Shown piece after piece: positions 573 through 63,814 of a DNA stretch of 64,000 nucleotides (the first letter of the stretch is position 1; each line of letters opens with the position of its first letter). The translations under genes were made by a program, and so were the position numbers. The stretch lies in the NCBI GenBank assembly GCA_025531455.1, contig JAMYHL010000039.1, positions 186,001 to 250,000 on the forward strand. Reading direction: 5' to 3'. The stretch is from Apiotrichum sp. Y4204 (taxonomy: Eukaryota; Basidiomycota; Tremellomycetes; Trichosporonales; Trichosporonaceae). The notes under the pieces were generated by a model that saw only the letters and a program-made list of their open reading frames with translations, had not been told where the DNA came from and ran no database searches.

Positions 573-3247
573 ATGGAGACTTACCACGACAACTATGTCG
601 CTGATATGCCTCGCGGGGGCCAGGACCTCGACAATGGCTACCACGGTCGTCCGCGCGCGCAGTATGGCAGTACGTGTTTCATGCGCACTCGTACCACCCC
701 CGGTGGCAACGTGCAGTCGTCACTGACCAGCAGGTAACATGGGCCCAAGCGGTACGCCAACCCCCAACCATGGCACAGCTACCAACTCGGCTGGTAACTC
801 GTCTACGAACGTGAATCCCTCGGACTCTATGAACGGACCGCCGGCCGCAACGACGATGCCTCCTGGCCCACGTCGCATGTCCTCCAGCTCCACCCGGCCA
901 GAGTTTAACAAGGATGATCCACCGATCGGCTTCGACGAGGGCGTTCTTCGTGGCTTGTGCGACATGGATGTATGTTTCGGGGCAGCACAGAGCTTGACTG
1001 ACAACGCAGTGTGCCCTCCAGATTCTCGCCGACCGAATAAAACAATCTGTTCAGTCGTGTAAAGTGGGTCTGCGTTACACTCAGGTCCACTAACCTTGCA
1101 GCAAATTGCCCAGTTCTTCAAAGAACGGGCAACCATCGAGGAGCGGTATGGACGCAGCTTGAGCGAGATGGCGCGTAACTCGAACGACCTGTACAGCCGA
1201 TCAGATGGCAAGGCTGGGTAAGCTACTGCACCTTGATTGCTTCACTGACACGATAGATCCTTTGTTACGGCTTACCAGGCCAGTCTTCGGGTACAGGAGA
1301 CGATCGCCCAGAACCGTCTCCGCTTCTCACAGCGCCTCGTGGAAATGAGCGAAGAGTTGAACGGTCTCGCGAGAGAGGGCGAGAAACAGCGCAAAGTTGT
1401 GAGATACGGTTGACGCGCCTTCCTCTGACAGCCCAGCACAAGGAGAACGGCTCTCGATACCAGACCATCCTCCAGGAGAGCGAATCTGTCATGGACAAGG
1501 CGAAGGCCAGGTTCGACTCGACGGCTGAGGAGCTTGAGCGCATTCTGGTCGCAAAGGAGGGGGAGAATTACCGCGACGCCGCCATTCGCACCGAAGCGGT
1601 GCCCAACAATAAACGTGGGCTTGGAAAGGCGCTCAACAAAGGTCTCTTCAAGGGCAAGAACCCCGCGCAGATGCAAAAGCACGAAGACGATGTGCGCCAA
1701 CGCATGGGCGGGGCGAGCGAGGCATTCCGCAAGGCGGTACTCGAATCCCAGGCCCTGCGGCAAGAGTACTTCAACTTCCAGCTCCCGAAGATTGTTCGCG
1801 TGGGTGTTTATAAGCTGAAAGGTGCTGACGTGAAGCTCCTAAAGGACTGTGCGGACGAGCTCGACATGGGCATGCAGTACCACCTCACTCGCTACGCGTA
1901 TATGTATGAGTCGACGATTGTCAGCGAGGGCTCTACGCTCTGCCCGAACAACTCTGAAGAGGGTAGGAACCTCCCGCCTGGCTTCGCTGACAACAAGGTC
2001 CTGGCCTCAAGGTCATCTTCGAGAACATCGACAACCGCAACGATTTCAAATCGTACATGCAGAACTATGCTGTCGCAAGAAATGCGCCGAAAGGTCCTAG
2101 GAGGGAAGGGCTATACGACGAAGGTTACGTCCCGCCACTCCCACCACATTTGCAGAACACCGCCATGCCTCAGGCGGGAATGCAACAACAACAGCAACCG
2201 CAACAGCAACAGCCTCAGCAGCCCCCGCAGCAACCGCCTCAACAGCAGCAGCAGCAGCAACAGCCTCAACAGCCTCAACAGCACCAGCCGCAGCAGCAAC
2301 AGCGCGAGCAGCCTCAACAGCAGCAGGCCATGCAGCCTCAGCAGCAGCAGCAGCCCCAGCAGGCTCCATTGCCGCATCCTCCACCCGTCACCAATGGCAA
2401 TGGCAACCTCCCGCAAGTGCCGACGGCTGTGGACATGTATGCCCAGCCATCAGCAGGCGCAACAAGCACCGGAACATTCGGTGTGGATCTCGGCGAGCAG
2501 CTCGCCCGGGACGGCACGGAAGTGCCGAAGGTCGTTATCAAATGCGCCGAGACGATCGAGGCATACGGCCTCGATTCGATGGGTATCTACCGTCTGTCAG
2601 GAACTACATCCAAAGTGCAGGCTCTCAAGAAGGCACTGGACACTGGTGAGTTTTCCGATGCGATCTGGATCACAAACTCACGAACAGACATTGAGGGTAC
2701 AAACGTTATGGACGAACAATGGAGTTCTGACATCAACGTCGTCTCCTCGGCGCTCAAGCAGTGGTTCCGCGAACTACCTGAACCGCTCCTCACCTACGGA
2801 CTGTACCACGGCTTCGTGGAGGCTGCGCGGTTCGAGAACGACCGCTTACGCCATATCCGCCTGCATGAGCAGGTCAATGAGCTTCCGGACCCCAACTACG
2901 CGACGCTCAAGTACTTTATGGGCCACCTAGACAAGATCCGGCGCAAGGAGAATATCAACCAGATGTCCGCATCCAATCTGTCCATCGTCTTCGGCCCGAC
3001 ACTATTGGGCGCTCCGCCGGAGGAGGGGGGCCTCAACCTCGAGCACATGAACTACCAGTGCAAGGTGAGTTGGAAGGGGAAATTGGGTTGGCTCGCGCAA
3101 CAGTCCAGCCATTGCCCTCGTTTGAATCGCCCTTGGCTGCTCTGAATATCTGCTGACACACAGGCCATCGAGACCATCCTGGAAAAGTACCAGGAGATCT
3201 TTGTTGAGGAGGACGAGGGAGGCGACACCGGGCAGGCTTCGGTGTAA
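573..3247 (+). CDS. RGD1: F-BAR and RhoGAP domain protein, RGD1-like
   Basis: This is a Rho-family GTPase-activating protein acting at the membrane-cytoskeleton interface, with a membrane-curving F-BAR module before the catalytic domain. Eight exons fit in frame (573-669, 734-969, 1010-1063, 1102-1217, 1257-1398, 1437-1962, 1998-3064, 3164-3247) and give about 773 aa; yeast Rgd1 is about 670. The FCH/F-BAR region spans about residues 100-400 and includes QIAQFFKERATIEERYGRSL. A glutamine/proline tract covers about 450-515. RhoGAP covers about 550-745, with the arginine finger in GIYRLSG near residue 586 and the later NLSIVFGPTLL motif. The 1963-1997 intron uses an AAG acceptor after a CTGAC branch motif. 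The start at 573 is the first ATG giving a continuous model. The family is certain; the RGD1 orthology comes from domain order. Confidence 0.9.
2181..2372 (+). repeat. CAG/CAA-rich polyglutamine-proline tract
   Basis: A coding low-complexity stretch of mixed CAG, CAA and CCN codons sits between the F-BAR and RhoGAP domains. It encodes runs of up to eight glutamines broken by proline. The mixed codons suggest selection on the protein rather than recent slippage of a pure triplet. The antisense open frames here are mirror images of this composition, not genes. Confidence 0.9.
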
Positions 3248-3892
3248 TTGAGACGAGACAGCGAGAGTGGAGGACGATGGATCGGACAGACGAGACTGGG
3301 ACGCGCGAGGAGGCAGGGTCCCGGACGACTCCGCAGACGCATTACGAGGCGACCAACAGTGTATTTGTTCATGTTTACCCCCTGCGTGTCCCAGCGTTAT
3401 TCATACAGGTCAACACACCGGGTCACAGCGACATATATTCCTTTTTCTCCTTTTCTTTCCTACCATGACAGACCCGACTGTAGAGATACCCAAGGGTGAT
3501 GCAGTACCTTGATATTTCCAAGCGCGAATGACACTTGGTGGTGGACGGATCTCGAAGGAAATCAGGCTCGTAATCCCACAAACTGAAAGTTTCCTTTTCC
3601 CCACCCGTTCTCGTCACGTAGTATTGTCTGCAATGGCCACCCGTCTCTAATCGCTCTCCTTTGGGTTCTGAATCTCCCTCTTTCATGCCACCAGCTCCGC
3701 TCCGGTTTCCCTTGGCTTTCCCCCTTCCCATCCCGCTACCCTCCAGGTCATACACTTCTTGCCCTGCCCACTGCGTCCTCTCGCTAATCCCTGGCCATGC
3801 CCATCCTCTGATGCTCCACAACTCTCCGGCTGCGGTCCGCGTTCATGAGGCTTCATGCTTCATGTTTCATGCACCTATGGGCTTCTATCCGC
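3248..3892. other. Convergent gap between RGD1 and COX12
   Basis: This 645-base stretch lies between two convergent stop codons and should hold both 3' untranslated regions. The open frames crossing it are compositionally ordinary and carry no recognisable motif. I see no RNA gene or repeat. Confidence 0.6.
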
Positions 3893-5068
3893 TTAGGGCT
3901 CGAGCGAGGCGGGGAAGGTGTTCGACTCGATCTGCTCGGTCCACTTCGAGGTCCACTCGTCTGCGTTGTCAGCATATGTGCATAGGAGCGGGGACAGGGC
4001 TGGTGATTGGAGATGCGGAGATGAGTTCGACGGATCACGCCCGAGTATGGATCGGATATGACGGCGGACATGTGACGCGGACCAAGGCATATAGCGGCGC
4101 ATGGAATGACGGTGAAAGCACAGTAGAACTGCCGAGGCGTCGGTGGCTTGCGCTGTCTCATGGTGCCCGTTCCTCATCTTTCCGATATCGCGGGACGGAA
4201 AGTCTGCGTAATGTGGCCCGTGGCCGTATTCCTCACAAGTCCCACTTCCAGCCCTGTCCATTGTTCACGCTACTCACTGGGGCAGAGCGACTGGTAGGCG
4301 CGCTTGAACTGCTGGCAAGGAGCAAACTCCTCGCCCTTGGCGTTAACGCACTTGTGGTAGTCAACAAAGTTCTGCTGTGGGGGTGTCAGTGCATGCACAA
4401 CAACAGAAAACGGTAGACGATGACGGCGACAGCGAACAGCGCGAGTGATGGCGTACGAGGTGGTCGCGGGTGGAGTTCGGGTGCGATGCGATGGAGGTGG
4501 CTTATGGCTGAAATGCGCGCAACGGTGGTTGGCTAGATTGCGCCGACAACCACGACCAACACACACCGCAACGGCTTCCGCGGCCGACACTCGCTCTCCG
4601 TCTCCCCAGTCTCGGATGCGCGCATTCACTCTGCCCCCGCGTCTCGCGTCCACGTCCCGCGTCCAGCGTTCATCGCGACGTACCCAGCTGTAGTGTCAAC
4701 AACATGTCGGAGCGAGTCGGGAGGCGAAGGGAAACTGTGTGAGCGACGGTCCGGCGGTGCGATTGGCCGTGTCCTCGGCGCGGGGGCTCACCAGTGCTTG
4801 GTCTGGTTCATGTTAGGGAACCGGGCGCTGCTGTTAGTTGTTGTCGCCGAGCCCAACTCACTCGAAGCCGGCGGTCTGGAGCTTGGCAATGTTAGCTGTG
4901 CGCGGGATGATTGTGGATATGCCCTGCGCCAATTTGCCCGGGTTGCGGGGTCGGCAAAAGATGCAACTGCACCGAAACAAAGACGCTTGGCCCGCGCGCT
5001 ACTTACAACGTAGGTCCTGTGTGTGAGCGCTGTAAATGATCACGGGATACTCACTTTTCCTCGGACAT
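3893..5068 (-). CDS. COX12: Cytochrome c oxidase subunit VIb (Cox12), seven exons
   Basis: This is the intermembrane-space subunit VIb of respiratory complex IV. Seven exons are needed (minus strand, 5' to 3'): 5055-5068, 5007-5016, 4862-4881, 4792-4827, 4684-4687, 4278-4374 and 3893-3960. Together they total 249 bases, or 82 aa plus stop, matching the roughly 83 aa of yeast Cox12. The product contains GFDARFPNMNQTKHCWQNF and a coiled-coil-helix-coiled-coil-helix fold with C27-x9-C37 and C48-x10-C59. The fifth exon is only CTGG. It finishes the codon for C27, supplies W28, and is flanked by ACTACAG and GTACGT. The third exon uses an AAG acceptor just after CTAAC. The first two exons (14 and 10 bases) are the least certain, though they keep the frame. 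Two introns of about 310 bases are long for this genome. Confidence 0.88.
4684..4687 (-). other. COX12: 4-base microexon of COX12
   Basis: Read on the minus strand, the four bases CTGG lie between a perfect acceptor (CACTACAG) and a strong donor (GTACGT). The upstream exon ends in TG and the downstream exon starts with CAG. Only inclusion of these four bases gives Lys-His-Cys-Trp-Gln, the invariant start of the first CX9C helix. Leaving them out shifts the frame. Confidence 0.87.
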
Positions 5069-5537
5069 GGTGGTTGTTTATGAGCGGTGCGTGGCGTGGA
5101 GAGAGAGATGGGTGGAGAGATTGAGGCAATACGTCGGGACGAAGGGGAGGGGAGCAGCCAGTGAGCCAGTGAGCCAGTGAGCCAGCCAGCAGCCAGCCAG
5201 TGACCGGCCAGTAGTTGGTAGTGGTGAGCTGCTGCCGAGGAGGGGGGCGAAAGGCGAGTGGCTCCGGAGGATCCCATTGTCCTCCGAGCGGGAGTATTTT
5301 GACACCAGGTGCGTGCCTGACTCCTGGCTGTGGACCCCTCCTGGCGGGTGCTCTGCTTGTCCTGTATGTCCCGTGCCTGGCTCTGTCTCACTGTAGTGAT
5401 CGGGATTAGCTCGGCCCTTCATAGGTGGCACTCTCTCGTCAGTCGCCACTTGAGACATCCTTCCTCCACTTCCACTCTCCATCACCATCTCCATCTCCAT
5501 CTCCATCTTATCAAGCAACAACAACACACCCAACATC
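5069..5537. promoter_or_regulatory. Divergent promoter of COX12 and CIA2
   Basis: This 469-base region separates divergent start codons and must hold both promoters. It contains a short tandem repeat near 5155-5202 and CCATCT repeats near 5477-5512 in the presumed CIA2 leader. I could not assign a clear TATA box. Confidence 0.6.
5155..5202. repeat. Tandem GAGCCAGT repeat
   Basis: About three perfect copies of the 8-base unit GAGCCAGT are followed by degenerate CCAGC/CCAGT copies, in the shared COX12/CIA2 promoter. It may be simple slippage DNA or a repeated protein-binding site. Confidence 0.75.
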
Positions 5538-6449: not shown

Positions 6450-9395
6450 TTAGTGTCCTGCCTCGCAAACGAGGAAGGACGCCTGGGCCGCCTGGCCACC
6501 AGCGAGAATGAGACCGGCTGTCACATCACCGACAGTCTTACGCAGCTCGGCCCCGACTGTGGGGTTCGAGTTGAGGCGCGCAAGAAGAGTGGTGAGCTCC
6601 TTTTCATGTGTGTACGTGGCGCGACGGCGACCACGACCAGTGACGATAAGGAGCGACCGCCAGAGTTTACGATCCCGGCCAGCAATGAGAGCATTCTCAG
6701 CATCCTTAGCAGCGTCCGACATGGGGTGAGACGACTCTTTGACCGCGAACGTTATGCGCGACAGCACGACCGGGGAGACACCGGCATCATCCGAGGTGTA
6801 GTACTGCCAAGCGATGTTGTCTGCGGTTTCCGAAATGGCACGGTTCTGCTCCTCCAGCTTGGGACCGGCGACAGTGAGCTGGTTGCTCTGGAACGCAACC
6901 TGGTGCATGTGGGCGGTCTCAGAGAGCTTCTTGTCGCGGATCGAAGCAGTTTCGGACGCCGAATCAGGCAGGTCGGCATGAACGATGCGGAGAATCGTGG
7001 CAGTAACATTGGCGTGGTGGCAGAGCTGGACAACAAGGCGAAGAGCGAGACGGTCGTCAGGTCCTCCGAAGAAGGGAAGGAAAATATGCTGTCCAGTTCC
7101 AGGTCCGAGGTGGCTCCCGCCGAAACCGCGGTCAATGAACACGGCGACGTCGGTGATTGAGCGTGTGAACAGGTTGCGGATGAAATGCGTGTACATGGTG
7201 GATCCATCCGCGGCGTAAACAGCGTGGAAAGGAGTCGACGGAGTGACTGGGGTTGTCTTCTCGGCATCGGGGCTGACGGGCTCGATAACATCGTGCTCGT
7301 ACTGGACAGTCCAAGGCACAATGATGAGCTCCGAGCCCAGCTCCTGAGCGTAGTCGGACACTGCGGTCGGGAAGCTGCTCTCACCGACAATCGAGAGGTG
7401 CGGGGTGACGTCGACACCGCGCAGACGGGCAAACTGCCTGTACAGTTGCAGAGCGTCGTCGGTGTGCACAAGCTGGTCCCTCTCGGTGGACTGCATGACG
7501 GAGAAGGTACGGCCGGTGAGTTCCAACAGCTTGAGGGCGTCCACATGAACCTCGCGGCTCTCCGGAGATGAGTGAGAATCACTAGTGCCCGAGACACTCT
7601 CTCCGTCGCCGTTCGAAGCCTTGGCATTGGGCGTTGTTGGAGCTGATGGGTTCACGGCCTCGTCAAGGGAGGGCTCGAGAAGCTGGGTGATGAACATGGC
7701 GGGGGCAAGGTGCTCCAGGCGCTGGAGAACGACCAGCATGCGCGAAGTTAGGACGCGACCGCCGGCTGGGCCCTCGCCGCCACTGCCGTATCCGAGGAAG
7801 GCCGTCTTGTCACGCTTCTCCTTGGCGTTTGCGGCCTGAGTTTGCGATAGTCGTGTGTGGAACCGAGTGGGATAGATCCAAAGTGTGCACGGTGTGGTGA
7901 CGAATGTAAGAACGACAGCCACAAAGACCAGCATGGAGAAGACCTCCTCACTGATAATGCCAGCGTCCAGACCAACGTTCAGCACAATGAGCTCAACAAG
8001 ACCCTTGCAACTCATGAGCATGCCAATGGCACCCGACTCGCGCCAAGTGTATCCGAGGAGCTTTGCGACACCGGCGCAGCCGAAGAACTTGCCAGCCCAA
8101 GCGACGACGCAGAGTAGCACAATGTAGCCCCACATGAGACCGTTGTTGAGCTTTGTGAGATCCGTCTTGAGACCGGAGAGCACGAAGTAGATTGGGATGA
8201 ACAGCATGTTGACCAAATCTTCAATGCGTTCGGTGAGATGGATGGCGAATCCCGCTTCGTGAGGAATGATGAGACCAGCAATGAAGCCACCGAAGATGGG
8301 GTGGACGCCGATGATGCCTGTCATGAAAGCGGAGATGAAGACGATCATCAAGGTCACGACCATAATGCTTGGCGTGGGGCCTTCGCCCTCAAGGCTTCCT
8401 GAGCGGCGGACAAGCCACACATACGCCTTACGAATCGGCCAAAGGAGGAGAATGGACCATCCTACAGCGGCGAGGAGAATGTACACCGAGCTCTCACCCT
8501 TGGCGCCAGAGCTGGTGAGAGCAAGGGTGAGCGCGAGGAGGACCCAGCCCACAACGTCGTTACCAACACCCGCAGACAGTACAACGACACCGACCTGTGT
8601 GTCGAGGAGCTTTGTGGCTGTGAGAATACGACAAAGCACCGGGAACGCGGTAATGGCCATCGAGACACCAATGAAAAGGAGGAAGTGGCCAAAGCTGACG
8701 TCGGCCGTCTTGGGGTTTGGCTTGACATAGTGGTTGTACACGGGGACTGCGACTGCCGCACCGAGTCCGAATGGCAGGACCATTCCTGCCAAGGAGATCA
8801 GTGCTGAGTTGCGTCCTTCGCGCTTGATGACTGCAATGTCGACTTCGAGGCCGATGACAAACAGGAAGAGAATCAGGCCGAGATTGGCGACCAGGTTGAG
8901 ATACGGGACGGAGGGCGGTGGGAAGATGTGTTCAGTAAATCCGGGAATACGTCCAAACGCCGTCTGTCCCAAAATAATACCACCGATGACCTCTGCGATG
9001 ACCTTTGGCTGATTGATGTACTTGAAGCAGTACCCGAGGCCCTGGGTGAAGACGATGATTAAGACGAGCTGGATAATGAAGAGGGTGATGGGCTGTGCAT
9101 CAAGTTAGTACCAGAGAAGCACACAAGCAGCCACCTACGTTTGAAGCATCGTAATGCGTGGGATCAAGGCCGGTGATGACACTCCCCTGTGTGATGTTAG
9201 TGACTCGTCATGCACGGGCGGAAGGTCATGTCAAGGGACGACTGACCGGCGGCGCGGCGACGCCAGCGCACGGATTGAATGGACGGTCTCGCGCAAGCCT
9301 GGGACGCTACCATCGATGACACTTACTGAGATACCACCACGCTTCTGGAGGCCACCGTCCATGAAGACGGAGGCAACGATGTTGGTCACTGTCAT
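6450..9395 (-). CDS. KHA1: K+/H+ antiporter of the CPA2 family, KHA1-like
   Basis: This is a monovalent cation/proton antiporter, likely of an endomembrane such as Golgi, for potassium and pH balance. Exons 9395-9327, 9186-9139 and 9092-6450 give about 919 aa (yeast Kha1 is 873). About residues 40-450 form the hydrophobic transport domain, with YINQPKVIAEVIGGIILG early and a second-helix segment LGLILFLFVIGLEVD typical of CPA2 exchangers. The helix DAGIISEEVFSMLVFVAVVL is near its end. The cytosolic C-terminal half contains repeated nucleotide-binding-like (universal stress) folds. The start at 9395 is the only ATG giving a continuous spliced frame; the first 39 residues come from two small exons and are less conserved. 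It is convergent with CIA2. Confidence 0.93.
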
Positions 9396-39207: not shown

Positions 39208-40860
39208 ATGGACGCGACGAAGCTCACCTCGACGATAAAGGAGCTGAACGAGGTGGTCGGCGCGAGCAAGACGGATGTGAGTGGGGAAAGGGCGGAACGG
39301 GAGGGGGCTCAGATGGGCGCGATCAACGCAATAGCCGCCCGGGCTCATGTCTCTGACGCGCGGAGGTCCAGTGGCTTACGCGCCTGTCTGCGTTGGCTGT
39401 GCTGTTGAGCATGTGGTCTTGTGGAGGGGAGGGATCCTGACCGCCGCCTGAACTGTTTATAGGATTTGCCACTGACACCCAGGAAATCATTCGGATTCTC
39501 AAGAAGCTCAAGGCGGACGTCAAGCCGACGGAGGAGCTGTTGAGGGTGAGTGAGCGTCCAGGGCGTGGACCCGAAGAAGCGGCGTGTGTGTGTGTGTGTT
39601 CGGCTGGGTCGAGGCCGGCATTGTTGTTTGCTGTTCATGCGATGGCGAGGGAGGTGACAAGGCGTTATGGTCGCCACCGGGAGGAACGCCAAGCGTGCGA
39701 CTGTCTCACCTGGCGCAGCTACCTGGCGCTGCTCGTGCACTCCGTAAACTCCTTTTGCTGACACTGCAGTCGTCCAAAGCCGGTATCGCGGTCGGAAAGT
39801 TGAGAAACAACCCCGCTCCGGGCGTCTCGTCGCTTGCCAAAGAGATTGTCAAGCTGTGGAAGGATGCCGTCGAGGAGAGCAAGCGGAAACGCAAGCGTGA
39901 GGAGGAGAAGGCCGATAAGACGAACGAGGAGCCGGTCAAGCGTGTGAAGGCGGAGACTGCTGCCACGGCGTCGTCGTCAGCGGCCGGTTCGCCGGCCGGG
40001 TCAGCATCGGGTGATGCCAAGGGCGTCAAGAGCCCGACATCGCCAACGCCGCTGAGCACCATCGACTCGACCCGCACCACACCACGCACCGCCAAGGGTG
40101 ACGGTGTAGCCACCACCCTCCGGTCAGACAACACCGATGCTGCTTCGGACAATGTCCGTGACAAGTGTGTGGTGATGATGTACGATGCCTTGGCGATGGA
40201 CTCCAAGTCGACCATCAAGGTCCTCAGCGAGCGTGCCATTGCGATTGAGAGTGAAGCGTTCAAGCTCATGAACTACTCGACTGGCAACGACTACCGGGCA
40301 AGTGAGTGCCCACTCTCGAAGAAGGGAAACGCTGACCCGCAGAAATGCGCTCGCTGTTCCTGAATCTGAAGGATAAGGGAAATCCTGCGCTCCGTAACGA
40401 GATTGTGCTCGGACAGGTTACTGCCCACAAGGTCGTGCGGATGTCCAAGGACGACATGGCGTCGGAGAGCGTGCGGGCGATGAACGAGAAGATTGAGCAG
40501 CACAACCTTTTCAAGGCCAAAGCTGTCGGCGAGATCCAGGCCGAGACAGACGCGTTCAAGTGCTCGCGCTGCCAGCAGCGCAAGTGCACATACTACCAGA
40601 TGCAGACCCGCAGTGCCGATGAGCCGATGACAGTGAGTGTTTGGGGGTAGATATGGAATGATGATGGCTGACAGCAGACATTTGTTACGTATGTACCACG
40701 GAGTGGCTGTGGAGAATGTGATGCTGACCTTGTTTTCCTTCACTTTCGGGATCTCTTGCGACTACAGATGCACGGTGAGTGGACGTGTTAAGAATATCTG
40801 TTTTCGATGTGTTGGCTGACGCGTTACCAGGTCTGCGGCAACCGGTGGAAGTTCAGCTAG
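39208..40860 (+). CDS. DST1: Transcription elongation factor TFIIS
   Basis: TFIIS rescues backtracked RNA polymerase II by stimulating transcript cleavage. Seven exons (39208-39276, 39483-39545, 39770-40301, 40343-40632, 40678-40688, 40768-40774, 40831-40860) total 1002 bases, or 333 aa. Domain I (LW) is at about 1-75, ending LAKEIVKLWKDAVEE. A basic/acidic linker follows. Domain II is at about 165-270, with VRDKCVVMMYDALAMDS. Domain III is the zinc ribbon, CSRCQQRKCTYYQMQTRSAD then EPMTTFVTCTVCGNRWKFS. It has the catalytic Asp-Glu hairpin and four cysteine ligands. The end of the ribbon is spread over exons of 11, 7 and 30 bases; the 7-base exon carries the third zinc cysteine. Confidence 0.95.
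40678..40688 (+). other. DST1: 11-base microexon of TFIIS
   Basis: ACATTTGTTAC follows acceptor GACAGCAG and precedes donor GTATGT. It encodes Thr-Phe-Val and two bases of the next Thr codon, as needed for the TTFVTC sequence of the ribbon. Confidence 0.88.
40768..40774 (+). other. DST1: 7-base microexon of TFIIS
   Basis: ATGCACG lies between acceptor GACTACAG and donor GTGAGT. It completes Thr (AC+A), then gives Cys (TGC) and Thr (ACG). The cysteine is the third zinc ligand. The next exon begins GTCTGCGGC (Val-Cys-Gly). Confidence 0.9.
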
Positions 40861-44004: not shown

Positions 44005-45518
44005 TTAGAAGAGGTTCCTGGCCTGGGCGCGCATGAGCTTGTCAAAGAAGGGCTGGAGGCTGTGCCAGAACGGGACGACATAGTTCTCAATGGTGGGCGC
44101 GACGGCGCGGTCCCACACGGGGCGGGCGACGGGCTCGAGGTGCGGCGCAACCTTCTGCATGAGGAAGAGAATGACAAAGGTGATGGCGAGGAGGTAGCCC
44201 GTCTGGATGAGGCGCTCCGAGAGGGTCGCGGGCGGAGGAGCGAGGCGCTCGCGGCGTGCCTTCTCCATCGCAACCTTCTCGTAGTAGCGGGGCTTCTCGG
44301 CCGGGGGAGGGGTGATGAGCGTGAAGAGGTGCGTGTTGAGCAGGAACGCGACGTTGGCCTCCTGGATGAGAGTGGCTGCGGGTCAGCATGGTCCACACAA
44401 GCCAAGACGTGACGGTGGAGGACGCAGATCCCAAGATCCACAATGTGATGAACTCTGTCCAAAGGATCCTGGTTTCCACCCCACTCTGCTTCTACTCACC
44501 CTTGAGCTTCGGGTCAGCGCCAACACCCTCGTCCATGCCGGTGCGGTACCAGGTCTTGACGTCGTTGAGCTTCTTCTTGCGCTCGCCGACGGTCTCCTCG
44601 CCAGCCTCGGCGGCGGAGCTGTCGCCACCCATGTCGAAGTAGTAGAAGCGACGGCCGTCGAGGCCGGGGAGGCCGTACGCCTTGCGCATGCGGGCGCCGA
44701 TGATCTGGCCACCGGACAGGTCACCGAGGTAGCGGACGTACGCGTGGGCAAGGAGGCGGGGGGCCATGGTCTCGGACTCGGCGCACTCGTTCAGGCGGTC
44801 CATGTACACCTGGAGGGCGGGGGGCGTGTGGACAAAGACCTCGGCAAGGAAGGGGGGGAGGGGGAACGGAGGGGCGGTGACACCCGCCGGCGCGAGCGCG
44901 AGGGGGTTGGAGGACGGCTTCGAGACATGCTTCGGCAGGCGCTTGAGGAGGAAGGTAATGTCATTCGCGATCGCGGGGGCGCGCTCGAGGAGCGTGGGGT
45001 TGTAGGTGGGAGCGAGAACGGAGTGGTTCGCGTAGCGGACAAGAGCCTTCTCAAAGGTGCTAGCGAGTTAGCTGGTGGTCTCATGCATGGGAGAAAGCAG
45101 GTTATTGCCACCGTGCAGCCTGGCAGCTCACAGAGCTCAGCTCTTGGGCTACCGCGCAGGGAACTGGTACTGATCCGATCGCGACACTAATTGACACTTA
45201 CTCGTACACGCGCCAAATGATGGCGAGCCAGCGGACGTACTCCTGGAGCTCGAGCTGGCCGTTGGTGAGGGCGACGGCGCCGTCCGAGTGCTCAGCAGTA
45301 GCGTGGGCGCGCTCGGTGCCCTTACGGAGGAGCTCGGAGACGGGGCGGGCCATGTCGAGTTCCTCGGGGAGGGGCCACTCGTCGACGGAGCGGGGGCGGA
45401 TGCCGTCCGCGTCGCCCGACTCCCAGAGCAGCGCCTCGAGCGTGTTCTTCGCCGGGGGAGCGGCGGCGGCGGGCGAAGCGGCGCGCGGGGCGTTGTTGTG
45501 GGGGATGGGGCACTGCAT
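44005..45518 (-). CDS. HMX1: Heme oxygenase, C-terminally membrane anchored
   Basis: Heme oxygenase opens heme to biliverdin, CO and iron, usually at the ER membrane. Exons 45518-45202, 45059-44500 and 44375-44005 give 415 aa (yeast Hmx1 is 317). The proximal heme histidine lies in TERAHATAEHSDG, and the distal-helix signature is HAYVRYLGDLSGGQIIGARM. Poly-Ala/Pro residues lead the N-terminus. The C-terminal hydrophobic segment TGYLLAITFVILFLMQKVA is followed by a further 45 residues, so the anchor is not at the very end. That extra tail is a mild oddity. It is divergent from GUP1 with a 1.8 kb gap. Confidence 0.95.
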
Positions 45519-47316
45519 GGTGGTGGATGGGTGGGTGGGGGAGAGAGAATGGGTGAAATCAAAAACTGACTAGCACTACAGAGTATGCCTGGAGCTGGCG
45601 TCGGGATAGGGAGCCGTGAGATGAGAAAGACCAAAAATGGCGACCGGCGACTCGGGGACTCGGGAGAGAGAGGTTGATTGAGAACAAGGTCTGTGGACAA
45701 TCTGATAATGCGAGGGAGAACTCTGGTTGGCTCTCGACCGGGGGGGCAGGGCACGCAGTGAGTGGGTCCTGCCATTGTCTGCCATTGCACCATTGTGTGT
45801 TCCTTTTCTGCGCGGCTTACGAAGGCCACTCAGAGCTCGACAGCTCTCAGAGGCTCACAGGGCAATGCGAGTTCGGCGGCAACTTTTACCAGCGCCAAAG
45901 TCTTGGCTTTTCTCCTTTCGGCCGACTTTGTGGGGGCGTGGCGGCGAATTTCAATGGGCGGCTGCACGGCTGCAAAGGGCCGCGAAGGGGGCCTGCGACG
46001 CCTCTGGTCGCCCCACTCCCGCTCCAGCCGGCTGCGAGGCTGCGCGTGGCCCCACGCGGCACCGCGCGGTGCACGCGGGGACCATATGGAGCGCATGGAG
46101 CGCACCCGCGTATCAGTATAAATGCTAGGCTCAGCTTTAGTTTGCATTCCGGGTTGCCCCAGGAATGTATTCCTGTTGTGCCGGCGCTTGCAGATCAGCG
46201 GTGAAGCACACTTTTCTTTTGGCGTCGTGAGCATGCTGAGCCAGAACTCTGGTCAGGCATAACGAGAAGTGGGTTATCGACCAGTGGGTGGCAACGGCAA
46301 AGACAGAAAAAAAAAAGTTGGAATCGGGGACATATCTCGCCCCATTGAACGTACACCGTTGCTTGAGGTGGTCGAGGTGACGACTGGAGGCACCGTCTGA
46401 CCAGTTGCCAGCAAAGATACACAGGGCAGCTAGAGGTAACCGAGAGGCCACAGAAGTAGGCCACTGCGCCGCGCAGGTTTTCGGTGGGCTGGAGCTCGCG
46501 GACGTAGGCTGCACCACTGTTGAGCAATGACCTCGTCGCCGACGACAACAAACTAGGTAGTGAGCGTGAACAATTCTTCAGCCTTCAGATCTCGAGGGCT
46601 TTAGAAGGACCGCCAACCGCCGAGACGTGTGGATGTCGCATGGGGGCTAACTTTGGCACTTTGGAAGCTGTCTAGCGTCTTGTTCTGACGATCTCTACAG
46701 CAACCATCGCAAGAGAGGAACAAAATTAATTCATCTCGGACATGGCGAACATTGAAGTGAGGAGACTGTACTATCGTCGTTCATAACTGCATCCCATAGA
46801 GTCCATAGTTGGCGTACCATGACTGCATCTATTGGAGGAAGCGCTGGAACTGATTACGAGCACATCGGGACTCTTTGAGAGCGAGTGAGGTCAAATTTCT
46901 GACAGACACTTGCCCAATGGTCAGCGCGAGACTTGTGCATGACTGTAGTAGTGTTCTCGGCAGCGAGCCTGCCCTGTTGCTTGTTTGTCTGCTTGGCTGA
47001 TAATCAGAGCTCCGCCAAGAGATACCTGTGCCATTCTTGGACAAGGAGGCCACAGAGTAAAAAGATCATTTAAGCCTGGGGGGCTCTTTGTCCAACGTGT
47101 TTCCGGTCCAGACAGGAGCCGGAACACGGCCTCCACTGCCCTCCACAACAGCCATCACAGCCAGCGCGACGCTGTACAGAGGCGAGTGAGACGCGCCGGA
47201 ATCGTCACATGGCAATCGACAATCGAGACCGAGACACGAGACACCAATCCTCCGTCCCTCTCAAGAGCTCATCCCATCTCGACATCGCACCCATCTCGCT
47301 CCCTCCTCCTCAGACC
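45519..47316. promoter_or_regulatory. Divergent region between HMX1 and GUP1
   Basis: This 1.8 kb region separates divergent starts. It includes a very GC-rich patch (about 45950-46090) directly before a TATAAAT at 46117-46123, and a 21-codon frame at 46165-46230. A coding-like minus-strand frame at 46195-46551 is listed under findings. No gene is certain. Confidence 0.45.
46117..46123 (+). promoter_or_regulatory. TATA-box-like element
   Basis: TATAAAT follows a GC-rich block and sits about 45 bases before an ATG. It looks like a core promoter element, but its transcript is not evident. Confidence 0.35.
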
Positions 47317-49459
47317 ATGCGCGCGCGGGTACGTCCAGCTGACCCACTTCCCAAAACGTCCCTCCATACTCACCCGCAGGTGCCGCGACCGACCCCCGAC
47401 CACCCAACTACAGACTCTCCTTCCGCCCCTCCGCGCTCTTCCTCGGCTGCATCTCCCGAATCGCCGGAGATGATTCCTCTACACAGCGTGCGCAAAGACG
47501 CCTCAGGCTCGGGTTCGGGCGGGGCGACTTCATCGGCACACGAGCTGCACCTCCCCCCGGGCGCGCAGCACCCCCACACCCCCAACATCACCGACTTTAC
47601 GGTGCGCATCCCAGGGAGCATTCGCAAGAACACGGGCGAGCTGCCCCCGCCGCGATGGCGCACGCCCGAGTTTTATGCGTACTATGTCGCGTTTATCCTG
47701 GTGGTGCCCATGCTTGTGTGGTGGCCGATGCGGTTAAGCCAGCGTGAGTGCGATGAGCAGGAGTACACGGCGAGGAGACGGCAACTGCTGCGCGAGGGAC
47801 TCGGACTGTTGAGGAGGGCTGTTGCTCTGCTCGAGTTCTGCGTCTCGAATTTCTGATCTTTGACACGTCGCGCACAAGCCTCCAGTCTCAGGCGTGTCTC
47901 AGCTCCACCAACTACATCATCAGCTCATCTACTGACACCCAGCGTCGAACCAGAACTGGTGGCTGATTGAACCGCGCCTCTCCCCAGGATGGATGTTCGG
48001 GCGCAAGGTGGACAACAGCGACGTGCAGTACCGCAGCTTCCGCGGCAACTTCTGGGCGCTCGTCGGCCTCGCAACCGTCTTCACGATCCCCTCCCACCTA
48101 GCGCGGCGGATATGGCCCTCGGGACCTGCGCGGGCACGATTCCTCGCACTGGCCGGAACTGCGCTTCTCGTCGCCTTACACGGCGTATCTGCTGTCAAGG
48201 CATTGGTCATCCTCATTGCCAACTACGCGTGCGCAAAGGCAGCCAAGCCGCCCGCCATCGCGCGGATATGGCCGGCACTCGCGATCATCGCCAACATGGT
48301 CATCTTGTTCGTCAACGAAAAGGCGGACGGATACCGTTTTGCCCGGCTGATTCCCGCGCTCGCCGTGCTCGACAACCCCAAGTATGGCGGTCTCCTCCCC
48401 CGCTGGCAGATCGGGTTCAACATTACGATGCTGCGCATCGTCTCGTTCGTACTCGACACGCATTGGAGGCAGCCCCCGCCGTCGTCTGCGCCGACCGAGC
48501 AGCGCTCCCGCACAGCATCGTCCCTCCCGGAACAGGAGTACAATCTTACAAATTACCTCGCGTACACGCTCTACGCGCCGCTGTACATTGCCGGCCCGAT
48601 CATGACGTTCAACGACTTTGCATGGCAGCTCAACCACCCGCTCACGATCACGCGCAAGGAGCGCGTCTCGTACGCTATCCGCTTCGCGTTCTGCATGCTC
48701 GTCATGGAGAGCATACTCCACACCATGTACGTCGTCGCCATCAAGAACACCGAGGCGTGGTACGGCAACGGCCCGGCAGACCTGAGCATGATCGGGTTCT
48801 GGAATCTCGTGGTCGTGTGGTTGAAGGTGAGTCTGGCGCCAGACGGTCGGTCCATTCGAGATCAAGTCACTCACACGCAGCTGCTCATTCCGTGGCGCTT
48901 CTTCCGCCTATGGGCGCTCCTCGACGGCGTCGACCCGCCAGAGAACATGGTCCGCTGCGTCGCGAACAACTACTCGACCCTCGGGTTCTGGCGCTCCTGG
49001 CACAGGAGCTACAACCTCTGGGTAGTGCGGTACATCTACATCCCGATCGGCGGCGCCAAGCGCGTCATACTGGCCACAACGCTGGTATTCACCTTTGTCG
49101 CGCTGTGGCACGATCTGTCGTTCAAGCTCCTCGCGTGGGGCTGGCTCGTGAGCCTGTTCATCCTCCCCGAGCTCATCGGCCGGACCCTCGTCCCCGCGAA
49201 AAAGTACGGCCAGCGCTGGTGGTACCGCCACGTCGCGGCGTGCGGCGGCGTCGCCAACATTTTGCTCATGATGAGTGCCAACCTCGTCGGGTTCGTGCTC
49301 GGCCTCGACGGCATGAAGCACCTCATGCTCGAGCTCGTGTCCACTGCGCACGGGTGGGCGTTCACCGCCTTTGCGTGCGCGTGTCTCTTTATCGGAGTCC
49401 AGATCATGTTCGAGTATCGCGAGGAGGAGGCGCGGCAGGGCATCGAGCGCCGCTGTTAG
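47317..49459 (+). CDS. GUP1: MBOAT O-acyltransferase, Gup1-like
   Basis: Gup1 is an ER membrane-bound O-acyltransferase that remodels GPI-anchor lipid; its loss affects glycerol transport and wall integrity. Exons 47317-47328, 47380-47743, 47943-48826 and 48881-49459 give 612 aa (yeast is 560). A disordered N-terminus precedes the first membrane span (EFYAYYVAFILVVPMLVWWP). SPGWMFGRKVDNSDVQYRSF is diagnostic of the family. Multiple spans follow, with YAPLYIAGPIMTFNDFAWQL, then FWRSWHRSYNLWVVRYIYIP and the catalytic histidine in VALWHDLSFKLLAWGW. The start is uncertain. The 51-base first intron is a multiple of three, so an unspliced frame could also begin upstream at 47209 or downstream at 47470. 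Confidence 0.93.
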
Positions 49460-49872: not shown

Positions 49873-52800
49873 CTACCGACACGGGTCGACGCAGATGACG
49901 CCGGCGCCCTCACTCCACGCGTAGCCCCAATCTGCGAGGAACTGCTTGATGCTCGCGGCCAGGCGGACCTTTGAGGCGCCGCGTGCCGGATCCTGCTGCC
50001 CCACGTGCTTTTCTTCTCCGACCACAACGTACGCTGTCGTTAGTACTGTCCATGTAGTTATGTTGTTTTCACTCACCAAGGCCGCGGTAGTGGCTGCGCT
50101 CGAGCTCGGCGAGGAAGTGGCCGAGTAGTTCGGTGCCCTCGGTGCCGTGAAGGGTGTGCAAGTCAAGGAGTGACTCTGTGCGCTCGTCCGAGGACAGCCT
50201 GTTGCCGCCTGGGACGGAGGCAGAGCCGGCCACGCCGAGAATAACACCCAAGCCGCCGCCACACTCCTTGCCGCGTTCGGAACGGTCGCGCGGGTCGTCG
50301 GACCATGCGGGATCGCGGCCGCGCACGGCTGTCTGTGCGTCGAGCATGCGGGCCTTGACGAGTGCCTGTGCCGCCTCGTTGGCTTCGGCCAACATCTTTT
50401 CGTTGAGGGCCTTGCCCTCGCGCGAGAAGCGCTTCGCGGCGGCACCGTCGCCGCGGCGGAACGCATCCGCTGCACGCGCAAGACATGCGTTGCGGGCGTG
50501 GCCGAGGCGGATCGAAGCTGCACGCGCGGTCATGTACTGCTCGTTCGCAACGGCACCAGTCTGGAGAGTCGGCAGCAGTGTCGGCGGACGCAACTTGATC
50601 CTCTGCGACGGGCGAGGTACAGCCGGTGCCTTCGGAGCAGATCCACCCTCGGAAACAGGTGAGTACGGTCCCTGGGTCGCAGGGGCAAAGTTCCGTGCTC
50701 CTGCACCGCCTGCACCCGGTATGTGAATGAGATTCGGCGGGGCGGGAACAGGGCGCTTGACCGCGTTTGCGAAGCGGTTGCGCGATGGGTCAAACCGGCC
50801 GCCGACATGGCGATTGAGGCGGGCAGCCAGCAGATCCGGAAAGTCGTCTCCCTGGCCATACATCTGTCCGCCGGCAACGGGAGGTGTGCCAGGCATGGAG
50901 CTGCCCGGGGAGTTGATGTCGAGGCGACCCATAGACGAGTTGAGCATGCCGGCATCCAGGTTGGTGGGCAGCTGGTGGAGGAATTCGCAGTTGGGGCCTT
51001 TGGCACAGTGTCCTCGCAACCAGAAGCGACACAGGGCACGGTCGAGATCGTGACTGAACCTGCAGTCGGAGCGTCTGCACTCGCCGTTGAGGAAGTAGCG
51101 ACACATCCTGGTCGGCCCGGCGTTGCGAGCCGCCAAAGCAGGGTTGATGGGCGCATTGAAGCCGCGTCCGCCCTGTTGGAAGAAGCCTGGGCCAGGCGCA
51201 TGGTGGTTAGCGTTGCGACCATCAAGCCCAATTAACGGACGCGGCGACGCGACGCGCTGGGGCGTCGACGCCCCGGAACGCGGGTGCGTGTACTGCGCGA
51301 CTAGCATTGCCATTGCGGCCTCAAAGTCGTACCCAGAGCGGTGTAGGGCGTCCTCGAGCTCCCGTCGGGCGACTGTCGAGAACACAGATGAGAGGACGTC
51401 AAGCGGCGTCATGCCGAGTGTAGCGTTCTGCGTCGGGTCGTCCTCAGGATCCAGCGAGGAGCGCGACTCGAACGAAGTCGATTGATCGGAAGTACCCTGT
51501 CCAGCCGTGCCACCAGCCGCTGAGGGGTAAAACTCTTGCGCGCTGGCGTTGAACGGCTCGAACGGTTTGGCAGCGGTGCTGAGGCCCGACGGCTCATGAT
51601 GGTGCAGCTTCGGCAAACCGGTGCCGAATGGTGAAAACTCGTCATCATCGTCGTCGTCAGGGACCACGCCGCGACTTGCGGGACGTCCAGCGGCAAGGCC
51701 TGGAGACTGGAAGGCTTCACTGGATTCGGCACGAAGCTTCATCTGCGGCCTTGTCGGGGTGCCCAGTGGCGAGTGGAAGGGGCTGGAGGGATCGCTGATA
51801 AGCGGGGCCGCGATGAGGCGGTTCGAGCCCGTGCGTACCATGCCTGGTGCAGCACCGAGGGTGTATGGCGACGCCGCACGAGGTGGGCCCGACTCGGCAT
51901 CGCGCCATGGATCACTGGGAACAAACGCCGCGTTGATGGAGGTGTTAACAGCCGAGATGTGGGGGTTTCTGGGCGGGGTACCGGGTGCACCGGGATTGAA
52001 AGTCGCTGCTTTGACGTTGAGAACGCGCGGGGACGACACTGGCGAGCCGGAGGAGCTGTGGCCTGAAGATGAAGGCGGCGCCGGGGCGGGGGCCGCACTG
52101 CCTGCTGTGACAGACGTCGGGGAGCGCGGAGCACTGTCAACGCGACCGAGTGCGAGATTCGAGGGTATGAGTGGGGCATGACCAGTGCCCGTTGGAGTCT
52201 GCGCGCCAGAGCCGATGGTCGCTGGAGAATGTGGCCGAGCGAGAGGTGTGCGAACACCGCGGAGACCGCCAAGGCCCGTTGGTGTGTATGGGCGACGGAT
52301 GGCACGTGTCGGGGTGAAACTGCCCATCCCCTCTTGATATGGGACCCCGCCTACGTCGTCTGATGCATGAGTGGTGCTCCGCTAGAGAAAAAGAAACTCA
52401 CCGCGATGCTTGTGCATGCAGTCCAGGCAGACCTGGTCCATGATGAGGTCGTCCTGGGCAAGTGTCAGCGTCGTGGACATCGGCAACGCGGCGACTAAAT
52501 TGGATGGCGTCGCGGACGTGTTCACTCACTTTGCCAAACTCGCCCATGTGCTGGCGGAGCACACCTTTGACGTCTTCCTCCTGGTCATTGTCGAGGAGCT
52601 CGATAATTTTGCGGACGAGCTCCTCACGTTCTTCGCGCGATGCGCCCAGGGTCGGGGCGTTGCGCGATGCAAGCCCGTTGGAGCCAGCACCTGCACCAGA
52701 TCCGTCAGCTTTGCCACTTGCGGCGGCATCGCGGTCGGTCGTGTCGCTGCCGGCTTTGGGAGAAGATGAATCGCTACCCTGGTCATCTTCGTCGTCCGAT

Positions 52801-61414: not shown

Positions 61415-63814
61415 ATGGCGCTCCCGGGCACAGAGACGATCCGCTTCCGGCGCCCAACGACGGGCCCCAACGCCGTCAAGCCCGCCGAACCCAAGAAGGA
61501 CGAGTTTGGCTCGCTCGCGCCCCAGGGGTGGAAGCGGAGACACCAGGGCCTCCTCCAGGACCAGGTTGGGCGGTGAGTGAGGTTGGAGGAGAGGGGTGTG
61601 GAAGAGTGGCGCTCGCTATCACAGGAGTAGCGGGCCGGGTCGGATGCAGCCTATGGCCTCTGGATTCACGGCTCGCGGTGGAGCCTCCCCCGCGCTGTTG
61701 GTAGTCTCCTCGCTGACATGCAGGCAGCAGAATGGCCCCCTCGTCCCCGGGTTGTCATTCGCGTTCCGTGTGCTCCTCCTCATCCGCACAGCGGGTGCGA
61801 TGTACTCGATCATCTCGGACTGCGATGAGGGTAGGTCTTAGACATCCGACCACATATCTGGTATATCCTGACATCCCCAGTGTTCAACTTTTTCGAGCCG
61901 CTGCACTATTTCCAGCACAACAGCGGGTTCCAGACATGGGAGCTCTCGCCAGAGTTTGCGGTGCGCTCGTGGGCATACATCCTGCTGCACTGGCCGCTGG
62001 CGCACCTCGGCCCATCGATCCTCGGCCTCGGCAAGCGCCCGCAGTTCTTCGCCCTCCGCCTCTGCCTCGGTGCCATCAGCTCGTTTGTCGAGGCAAAGTT
62101 CTTCCGCGCCGTTGTTGAGAGCGTCAATGAGCGCGTGGGGAGATATGTGCTCTTTGCCATGCTCTTTTCTGCCGGCATGTGGGGCGCCAGCGTAGGTGAG
62201 TCGAGTGGGGAGGTTGTGATTGCATCGCGGCAGCGTTAATCAGCAACGGCTGTCACCGCGGCATGGCACTGATCACTGCCCACACCCTGTTAGATTCCCA
62301 CTGACGGCAGCCTTCCTGCCCTCGTCGTTCACGATGTACACGACCATGCTCGCTGCCTCGTACTGGTTCCACCCCGCGACGTCGACCCCGACCGGCGTCC
62401 GCCGTATGCGACTTGCCGTGTTCTTCACTGCTGTGGGCGCGATCGTTGGCTGGCCGTTCGCGGCTGCTCTCGGTTTGCCCATCATCTTTGAGCAGGTCCT
62501 CGTCGCCGGTGGTGAGATTGTCATGCCCGCTGACCGCGGTATCTGGCGCGCCCGCCGCCTCAACAACTTGGTCAAGGCCATGCTCGCTGCCGCCTGCGTT
62601 GCAGTGAGTCCAGTGACAGCAATCAGTTCTGACTGTAGATCCCCGTGGTTCTCGTCGACTCGTGGGCATACGGGCGCTGGGTGTTCCCGTCGCTCAACAT
62701 TGTCACCTACAACCTGTTCTCGCGCTTCGGCCCGGATCTCTACGGCACCGAGCCCCCTACGTACTACCTCGCAAACCTGTTCCTCAACTTCAACTTCTTC
62801 GCCCCGCTGGCCCTCGCTGCCCTCCCCGCTCTGGCGATCACCTACAAGTTTGACTTCCGCCGCCTCGGCAAGACGCAGATGCTGCCCAAGGTCGGCGAAT
62901 CGAGCCCGTACCTCCTCCTCGCTATCCGTCTCGCGCCCTTCTACATCTGGTTCACCATCCTCACCCTCCAGAAGCACAAGGAGGAGCGCTTCATGTTCCC
63001 CGCGTACCCCCTCCTGTGCTTCAACGCCGCTGTGACCATCTACCTCGTCCGTGGATGGCTCGAGACCGCGTTCGTCAAGGTCACAAACTCGCCCTACCGT
63101 GCCAGCCAGACCTCGATGTTCTCTTGGTTCGCCTTTGCGGCCGTCATGATCCCCTCGCTTCTCTCCATCGGTCGCATTGTCGGCATGTTCAAGTTTTACC
63201 ACGCGCCCTTCGACGTCGCCCACCACCTGCAGTACCGCACGCTCCCGTCCGTCCTGGCCGACCTGGGCTTCTCGCCCATCCCTTGGCCCGAGGACTACCG
63301 GCCAAAGGACAACGAGCCGCCGGAGTGGGACCTCTCGCCCATCGCAGAGATGGACCCGCCCATCACGCTCTGCTACGCTGCCGAGTGGCACCGCTTCCCG
63401 GGCTCGTACCTCGTCCCCGAGGGCGTCGAGGTACAGTGGGTGAAGAGTGCGTTTGACGGCATGATGCCGCGCCGGTGGGAGCGCAGCGGCAAGGCCGGGC
63501 TGTGGCCGCGCGCTGAGACGCGCATCGTCCACCCCACGCGCTTCAACGGCGCAAACAAGCCTTCCCTCGAGCCAGGAACCTACGTTCCCATCTCAGAGTG
63601 CACGTACCTCGTGTCGCTCAACCTGCCGTCGATGCGCCCGACGGCCCTCGAGCCCGACTATGTCGACTCGACGGACGAGTGGGAGCGCGAATTCTGCGCA
63701 CCCTTCCTCGACGGACCCAGCTCGCGCTGGTGGTCCCGCCTCCTCTGGCTCCCGGGCGGTATTGGCGAGTCGGGTCGCGTATACGGCGACTACTGCCTTC
63801 TCCGGAGGAAGTGA
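61415..63814 (+). CDS. ALG9: Alpha-1,2-mannosyltransferase Alg9 (GT22)
   Basis: Alg9 adds the seventh and ninth mannoses to the dolichol-linked oligosaccharide in the ER lumen. Exons 61415-61572, 61724-61830, 61881-62195, 62311-62603 and 62639-63814 total 2049 bases, or 682 aa; yeast Alg9 is 555. The catalytic luminal loop SDCDEVFNFFEPLHYF is near residue 85, followed by FQTWELSPEFAVRSWAYI. The GT22 signature HKEERFMFPAYPLLCFNAA is near 400. Many hydrophobic spans lie between. The C-terminal domain is luminal and ends YGDYCLLRRK. The extra length lies mainly in this C-terminal part. Confidence 0.96.

Follow-up and report, generated by a model that had tools for sequence, protein, structure and literature searches.

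A predicted four-nucleotide exon in COX12 of Apiotrichum sp. Y4204 and the broken gene models of its relatives

The nuclear COX12 gene of Apiotrichum sp. Y4204, which appears to be in working order and encodes cytochrome c oxidase subunit VIb, very probably contains an obligatory exon of four nucleotides, CTGG, lying between two ordinary GT–AG introns. We base this prediction on the sequence of a 64,000-nucleotide stretch (the window; C116:186001-250000, in an assembly of 48.9 Mb and 182 contigs), on a second copy of the gene in the same genome and on protein models from relatives. Members of the COX6B/Cox12 family are imported into the intermembrane space and assembled into complex IV. The interest of the exon lies in its apparent spread and in the wrong COX12 records that it seems to have left behind; it also makes COX12 a natural test case for the way in which an intron-defining spliceosome deals with an exon too short to hold two complexes, and for the order in which the two introns are spliced out.

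Gene structure and the CTGG exon

The gene lies on the minus strand and consists of seven exons (Table 1) totalling 249 nt, which join without an internal stop to give an 82-residue product. Its six introns, all GT–AG, measure 38, 125, 34, 104, 309 and 317 nt. The product matches the Pfam family COX6B (PF02297) at 1.8e-23, with 82.9 bits against a cut-off of 26, and solved Cox12 chains in the PDB at 8.2e-33 and 1.3e-31. The first-pass annotation had named the gene COX12 and had summed the same seven exons to 249 bases without a stop, and the translation, the COX6B match and the matches to Cox12 chains all bear this out. The CX9C...CX10C spacing is exact in the product (P0001), and its first cysteine depends on the four-nucleotide exon. 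As a side observation, the acceptors of exon 4 (4827) and exon 6 (4374) are NAGNAG-type tandems, AACAGCAG/CGCC and CACAG/CAGAAC (slashes mark splice sites), at which use of the alternative AG would add a Ser before Ala16 or remove Gln29, respectively.

To describe the surroundings, we ran Pfam scans on 20 other stretches of the window (Table 1). Rfam gave no match at gathering level on the whole window or at E<=1 on 3800-5300, and ARAGORN found no tRNA.

Table 1 Exons and selected introns of COX12, with Pfam-annotated neighbours in the window
Feature	Position	Strand	Length (nt)	Remarks
COX12 exon 1	5055..5068	-	14	Start codon
COX12 exon 2	5007..5016	-	10	Phase 0 at end
COX12 exon 3	4862..4881	-	20	Upstream AG here, lost in second copy
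COX12 exon 4	4792..4827	-	36	Final TG is bases 1-2 of Cys27 codon
Intron 4	4688..4791	-	104	GTGAGC...ACTACAG; phase 2, within Cys27 codon
COX12 exon 5 (predicted)	4684..4687	-	4	CTGG; last Cys27 base plus Trp28
Intron 5	4375..4683	-	309	GTACGT...CCACAG; phase 0, ahead of Gln29
COX12 exon 6	4278..4374	-	97	Itself matches COX6B
COX12 exon 7	3893..3960	-	68	Stop codon
RhoGAP	1991-3142	+		Pfam
Na/H exchanger	6453-9104	-		Pfam
TFIIS-like	39554-40360	+		Pfam
Heme oxygenase	44495-45569	-		Pfam
MBOAT	47936-49456	+		Pfam
CCCH zinc finger with DUF1771	50069-52324	-		Pfam; the gene at 50069-52327 has a colinear copy on C117
Alg9-like mannosyltransferase	62639-63811	+		Pfam

The CTGG exon has canonical splice sites (AG/CTGG/GT), with ...TTGACACTACAG before it and GTACGTCG... 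after it, and it restores the reading frame. Between anchors in exons 4 and 6, we enumerated the possible joins through GT/GC–AG introns, using either one intron or one extra exon of 1-30 nt. For the copy in the window, the enumeration returned 54 in-frame, stop-free solutions, six of which have a Cys where CX9C requires one and one of which reads HC[WFY]Q; for the second copy, the corresponding numbers were 102, two and one. The sole HC[WFY]Q solution is the identical CTGG exon in both copies. This upholds the earlier proposal that CTGG (4687-4684), between ACTACAG and GTACGT, alone restores His-Cys-Trp-Gln.

Splice sites were judged by the general splice-site consensus together with dinucleotide shuffles (n=20,000) over 405 of the 417 bases that separate exon 4 from exon 6. 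The strict form YAG/YTGG/GTRNGT arose in 1 of 20,000 shuffles, the loose form AG/YTGG/GT in 101 of 20,000 and any Cys-aromatic four-mer flanked by AG and GT in 562 of 20,000. A count over the 64-kb window, both strands included, gives one instance of the strict form and eight of the loose form. A loose match is thus unremarkable by itself, being at the per-cent level, whereas the full splice context is not.

The second copy and competing readings

Contig C117 carries a second COX12 with the same seven exons, in which one of 249 coding bases and none of the residues has changed. Compared copy with copy, the six introns are identical at 862 of 930 aligned columns (68 differences), and the loss of the upstream AG in the second copy supports the start that we use for exon 3. 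A block of 52 bases around CTGG (4726-4675) is identical in both copies; we count this as mild support, because longer identical intron runs (98 and 81 bases) lie elsewhere. The 98-base run (window 4553-4456, minus strand, in intron 5) is the longest in the gene and has no Rfam match.

Three other readings of the locus were weighed against the CTGG exon. Were intron 5 coding, CTGG would run into 103 open codons, and a long insert would separate Trp28 from Gln29. In the window this can be read: the 309 nt of intron 5 are open in frame, exon 4 joined at the ACTACAG acceptor to a retained intron 5 gives a stop-free product, and two database models (P0007 and P0008) have shorter inserts of this kind. 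In the second copy, however, intron 5 measures 302 nt, so the frame breaks and no such solution exists there, and 180 of the 201 relatives' representatives listed (see below) have no insert between the Trp28 and Gln29 positions, which makes this reading highly improbable. We give just as little credence to a splice from exon 4 to a CATTTCAG acceptor inside intron 5, which would leave CTGG unused and encode His-Cys-His and about 44 further residues before Gln29. Although this form is open in frame in both copies, and P0009 and P0010 carry inserts of its type, the CATTTCAG stretch differs at five residues between the copies, against none in the 82-residue protein, and the product would lose the CX9C spacing that the same 180 of 201 listed representatives keep. 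On the comparison of the copies and the representatives' spacing, we rejected both candidates.

The remaining reading, that this is a decaying COX12 with no functional splice form, draws on the gene being present in two copies, which would make decay possible for one of them. Yet the exons and the protein are the same in both copies, and coding changes (1/249) are rare against those in intron columns (68/930). A COX6B search of the assembly, moreover, found only these two loci and a pair on C128 and C169, so that decay, too, seems very far from likely. An obligatory CTGG exon in a working gene therefore remains our strongly preferred reading.

The C128 and C169 loci form a second pair of COX6B-like loci in their own right. 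Both came into question as further COX12 copies, of which C128 was rejected, because its translated open reading frame reads like an assembly factor that we take to be COA6. C116 and C117 are colinear at COX12 and, about 46 kb further on, at a second gene, with 96% identity. The two colinear loci (COX12 and window 50069-52327) resemble what a hybrid or diploid assembly would contain. Hybrid genomes are described among the Trichosporonaceae in the accessible part of one study (PMC7026411) and would fit the two copies of COX12.

Gene models in relatives

Three protein searches, from which 120 matches each were listed of 207, 1618 and 153 found, yielded 201 distinct cluster representatives, with our own product excluded. 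Of these, 180 contain Cys-X-[QK] along with a correctly placed second Cys, and 21 do not; X is W (113), F (52), Y (14) or H (1). Among the matches listed, 14 of 18 named Tremellomycete representatives have this core respiratory subunit broken at a single codon (four are intact), as against 7 broken models among the 183 others, a group that takes in unnamed metagenomic entries; class was assigned by printed names. Taxonomy was looked up for nine genera or species, Tremellales sp. Uapishka_1 was placed by its name, and Trichosporon and Cryptococcus were counted as Tremellomycetes on our assumption. Queries in the second and third searches included broken models, and the third favours broken models because its query was one. 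In the first search alone, with the window protein as the query, the listed matches included 11 Tremellomycetes, of which 7 were broken, and 109 others, of which 5 were broken (Fisher p 3.7e-6).

The broken models fail in several ways. HWYQ replaces the expected residues in P0002 and P0003 (Cutaneotrichosporon), P0005 (Kwoniella) and P0186 (Naematelia), and HWCQ does so in P0183 (Tremella mesenterica). Back-translated from the protein models, as are all donors given here for relatives (for example, GTAY), these five read TG, then GTAY or GTGY, then CAR, as if the model had read on for four bases beyond a GT donor and so saved the frame. An insert preceded by HCW-Val-Ser marks P0007 (Kwoniella mangroviensis) and P0008 (Saitozyma), the pattern that CTGG and then a GTRAGY donor would give. 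In P0009 (Cryptococcus sp.) and P0010 (Trichosporon asahii), HC is followed by an insert without Trp and then by Gln. In P0169 (Kwoniella heveanensis) and P0178 (Vanrija), exon 2 runs directly into exon 6 and the model is 62 residues long; the 20 residues missing relative to 82 equal exons 3, 4 and 5 (60 nt). Exons 3 and 4 alone make up 56 nt, so a model without the four-nucleotide exon cannot keep them and stay in frame. The sequence is scrambled in P0170, P0171 and P0179, with breaks that do not point to a four-nucleotide exon, and the second intron may be absent from P0179 (GWQ). The four intact entries (P0012, P0018, P0029 and P0058) read HCWQ, as protein sequence only.

A missed four-nucleotide exon would explain most of the 14 broken Tremellomycete models, and their pattern suggests that the same exon is present across Tremellales and Trichosporonales. 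The exon itself is identical in the two copies of one genome; its proposed presence in other species is read from protein models. Annotation failure had been anticipated in the first-pass annotation, and relatives' entries are indeed broken, but mostly as normal-looking wrong proteins (HWYQ, a spurious insert or dropped exons) and not as pseudogenes. Because several wrong records resemble normal proteins, the error can enter alignments and models unnoticed. Separately, two Cox12 entries that look fungal are attributed to a bacterium (P0123, Paucibacter) and to a tree (P0084, Corymbia); their contigs measure 374 and 1057 bases, and contamination is the probable cause.

Origin, splicing and known short exons

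The seven broken models outside the Tremellomycetes carry names of Agaricomycetes, an assignment that was looked up for Taiwanofungus and that we presume for the rest. In six of the seven, the break comes directly behind the same His and Phe-Gln-Asn stays in one piece, whereas P0181 breaks earlier; this pattern suggests that an older intron interrupts the Cys codon and that no intron follows the aromatic residue. The microexon could then have been made by a phase-0 intron gained four bases downstream of the older phase-2 intron, a step that we propose tentatively because P0055 (HWY) is the one model whose back-translation gives a clean GT donor there.

In the proposed splicing scheme, the codons for Cys27 and Trp28 would be put together from the TG that closes exon 4 and the C TGG of exon 5. 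Introns 4 and 5 would be removed in succession, by intron definition, which is the simplest account because four bases cannot seat acceptor and donor complexes at once; after the removal of either intron, the four bases would belong to an exon of normal size. Skipping the exon in silico yields HCRTLL..., with read-through of the normal stop and an end in the 3' flank, that is, a frameshift and not an early stop. Given this frameshift and the loss of CX9C, inclusion would be needed for a working protein. A bolder proposal is that the exon predates the split of Tremellales and Trichosporonales and that its inclusion is regulated, with skipping or intron retention switching off a respiratory subunit and COX12 output reporting splicing fidelity; we regard this combination as unlikely.

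The exon is of an already known type and probably order-spanning, and none of the papers listed by searches confined to open-licence literature describes it. The first-pass annotation had placed four bases near the lower limit of what the spliceosome can handle. That view does not hold, because one-nucleotide exons are reported, in the parts of the sources available, for Arabidopsis APC11 (PMC4674806) and for Fusarium CYP621A genes (PMC12940212); the latter source also cites exons of 2-5 bp in Arabidopsis, Drosophila and humans.

As far as the available text of that report goes, the CYP621A exon (PMC12940212), like the predicted COX12 exon, is fungal, obligatory, situated in a conserved motif, needed for the frame and missed by annotation. 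It differs in being 1 nt long, in belonging to an ascomycete P450 of unknown function and in resting on SRA reads, whereas the COX12 exon has 4 nt and is predicted from sequence. The APC11 exon (PMC4674806), as described in the accessible part of that paper, is likewise a constitutive ultra-short exon between two introns, for which stepwise removal was proposed; unlike that of COX12, it is in a plant gene, measures 1 nt and was tested with fusion constructs. The plant microexons described in PMC8831610, which measure up to 15 nt, are, according to the portion available, conserved and often misannotated, as the COX12 exon appears to be, but were found from RNA-seq across 10 plant species. The exon in Arabidopsis At2g39780 (PMC550657, available in part) has the same length, 4 nt, and was missed by aligners at default settings, in a plant gene that, unlike COX12, has EST support. 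Finally, the P450 microexons of Phanerochaete chrysosporium (PMC1184071, likewise available in part) are, like the COX12 exon, very short exons of a basidiomycete, but the shortest reported is 6 bp and they are spread over a gene family.
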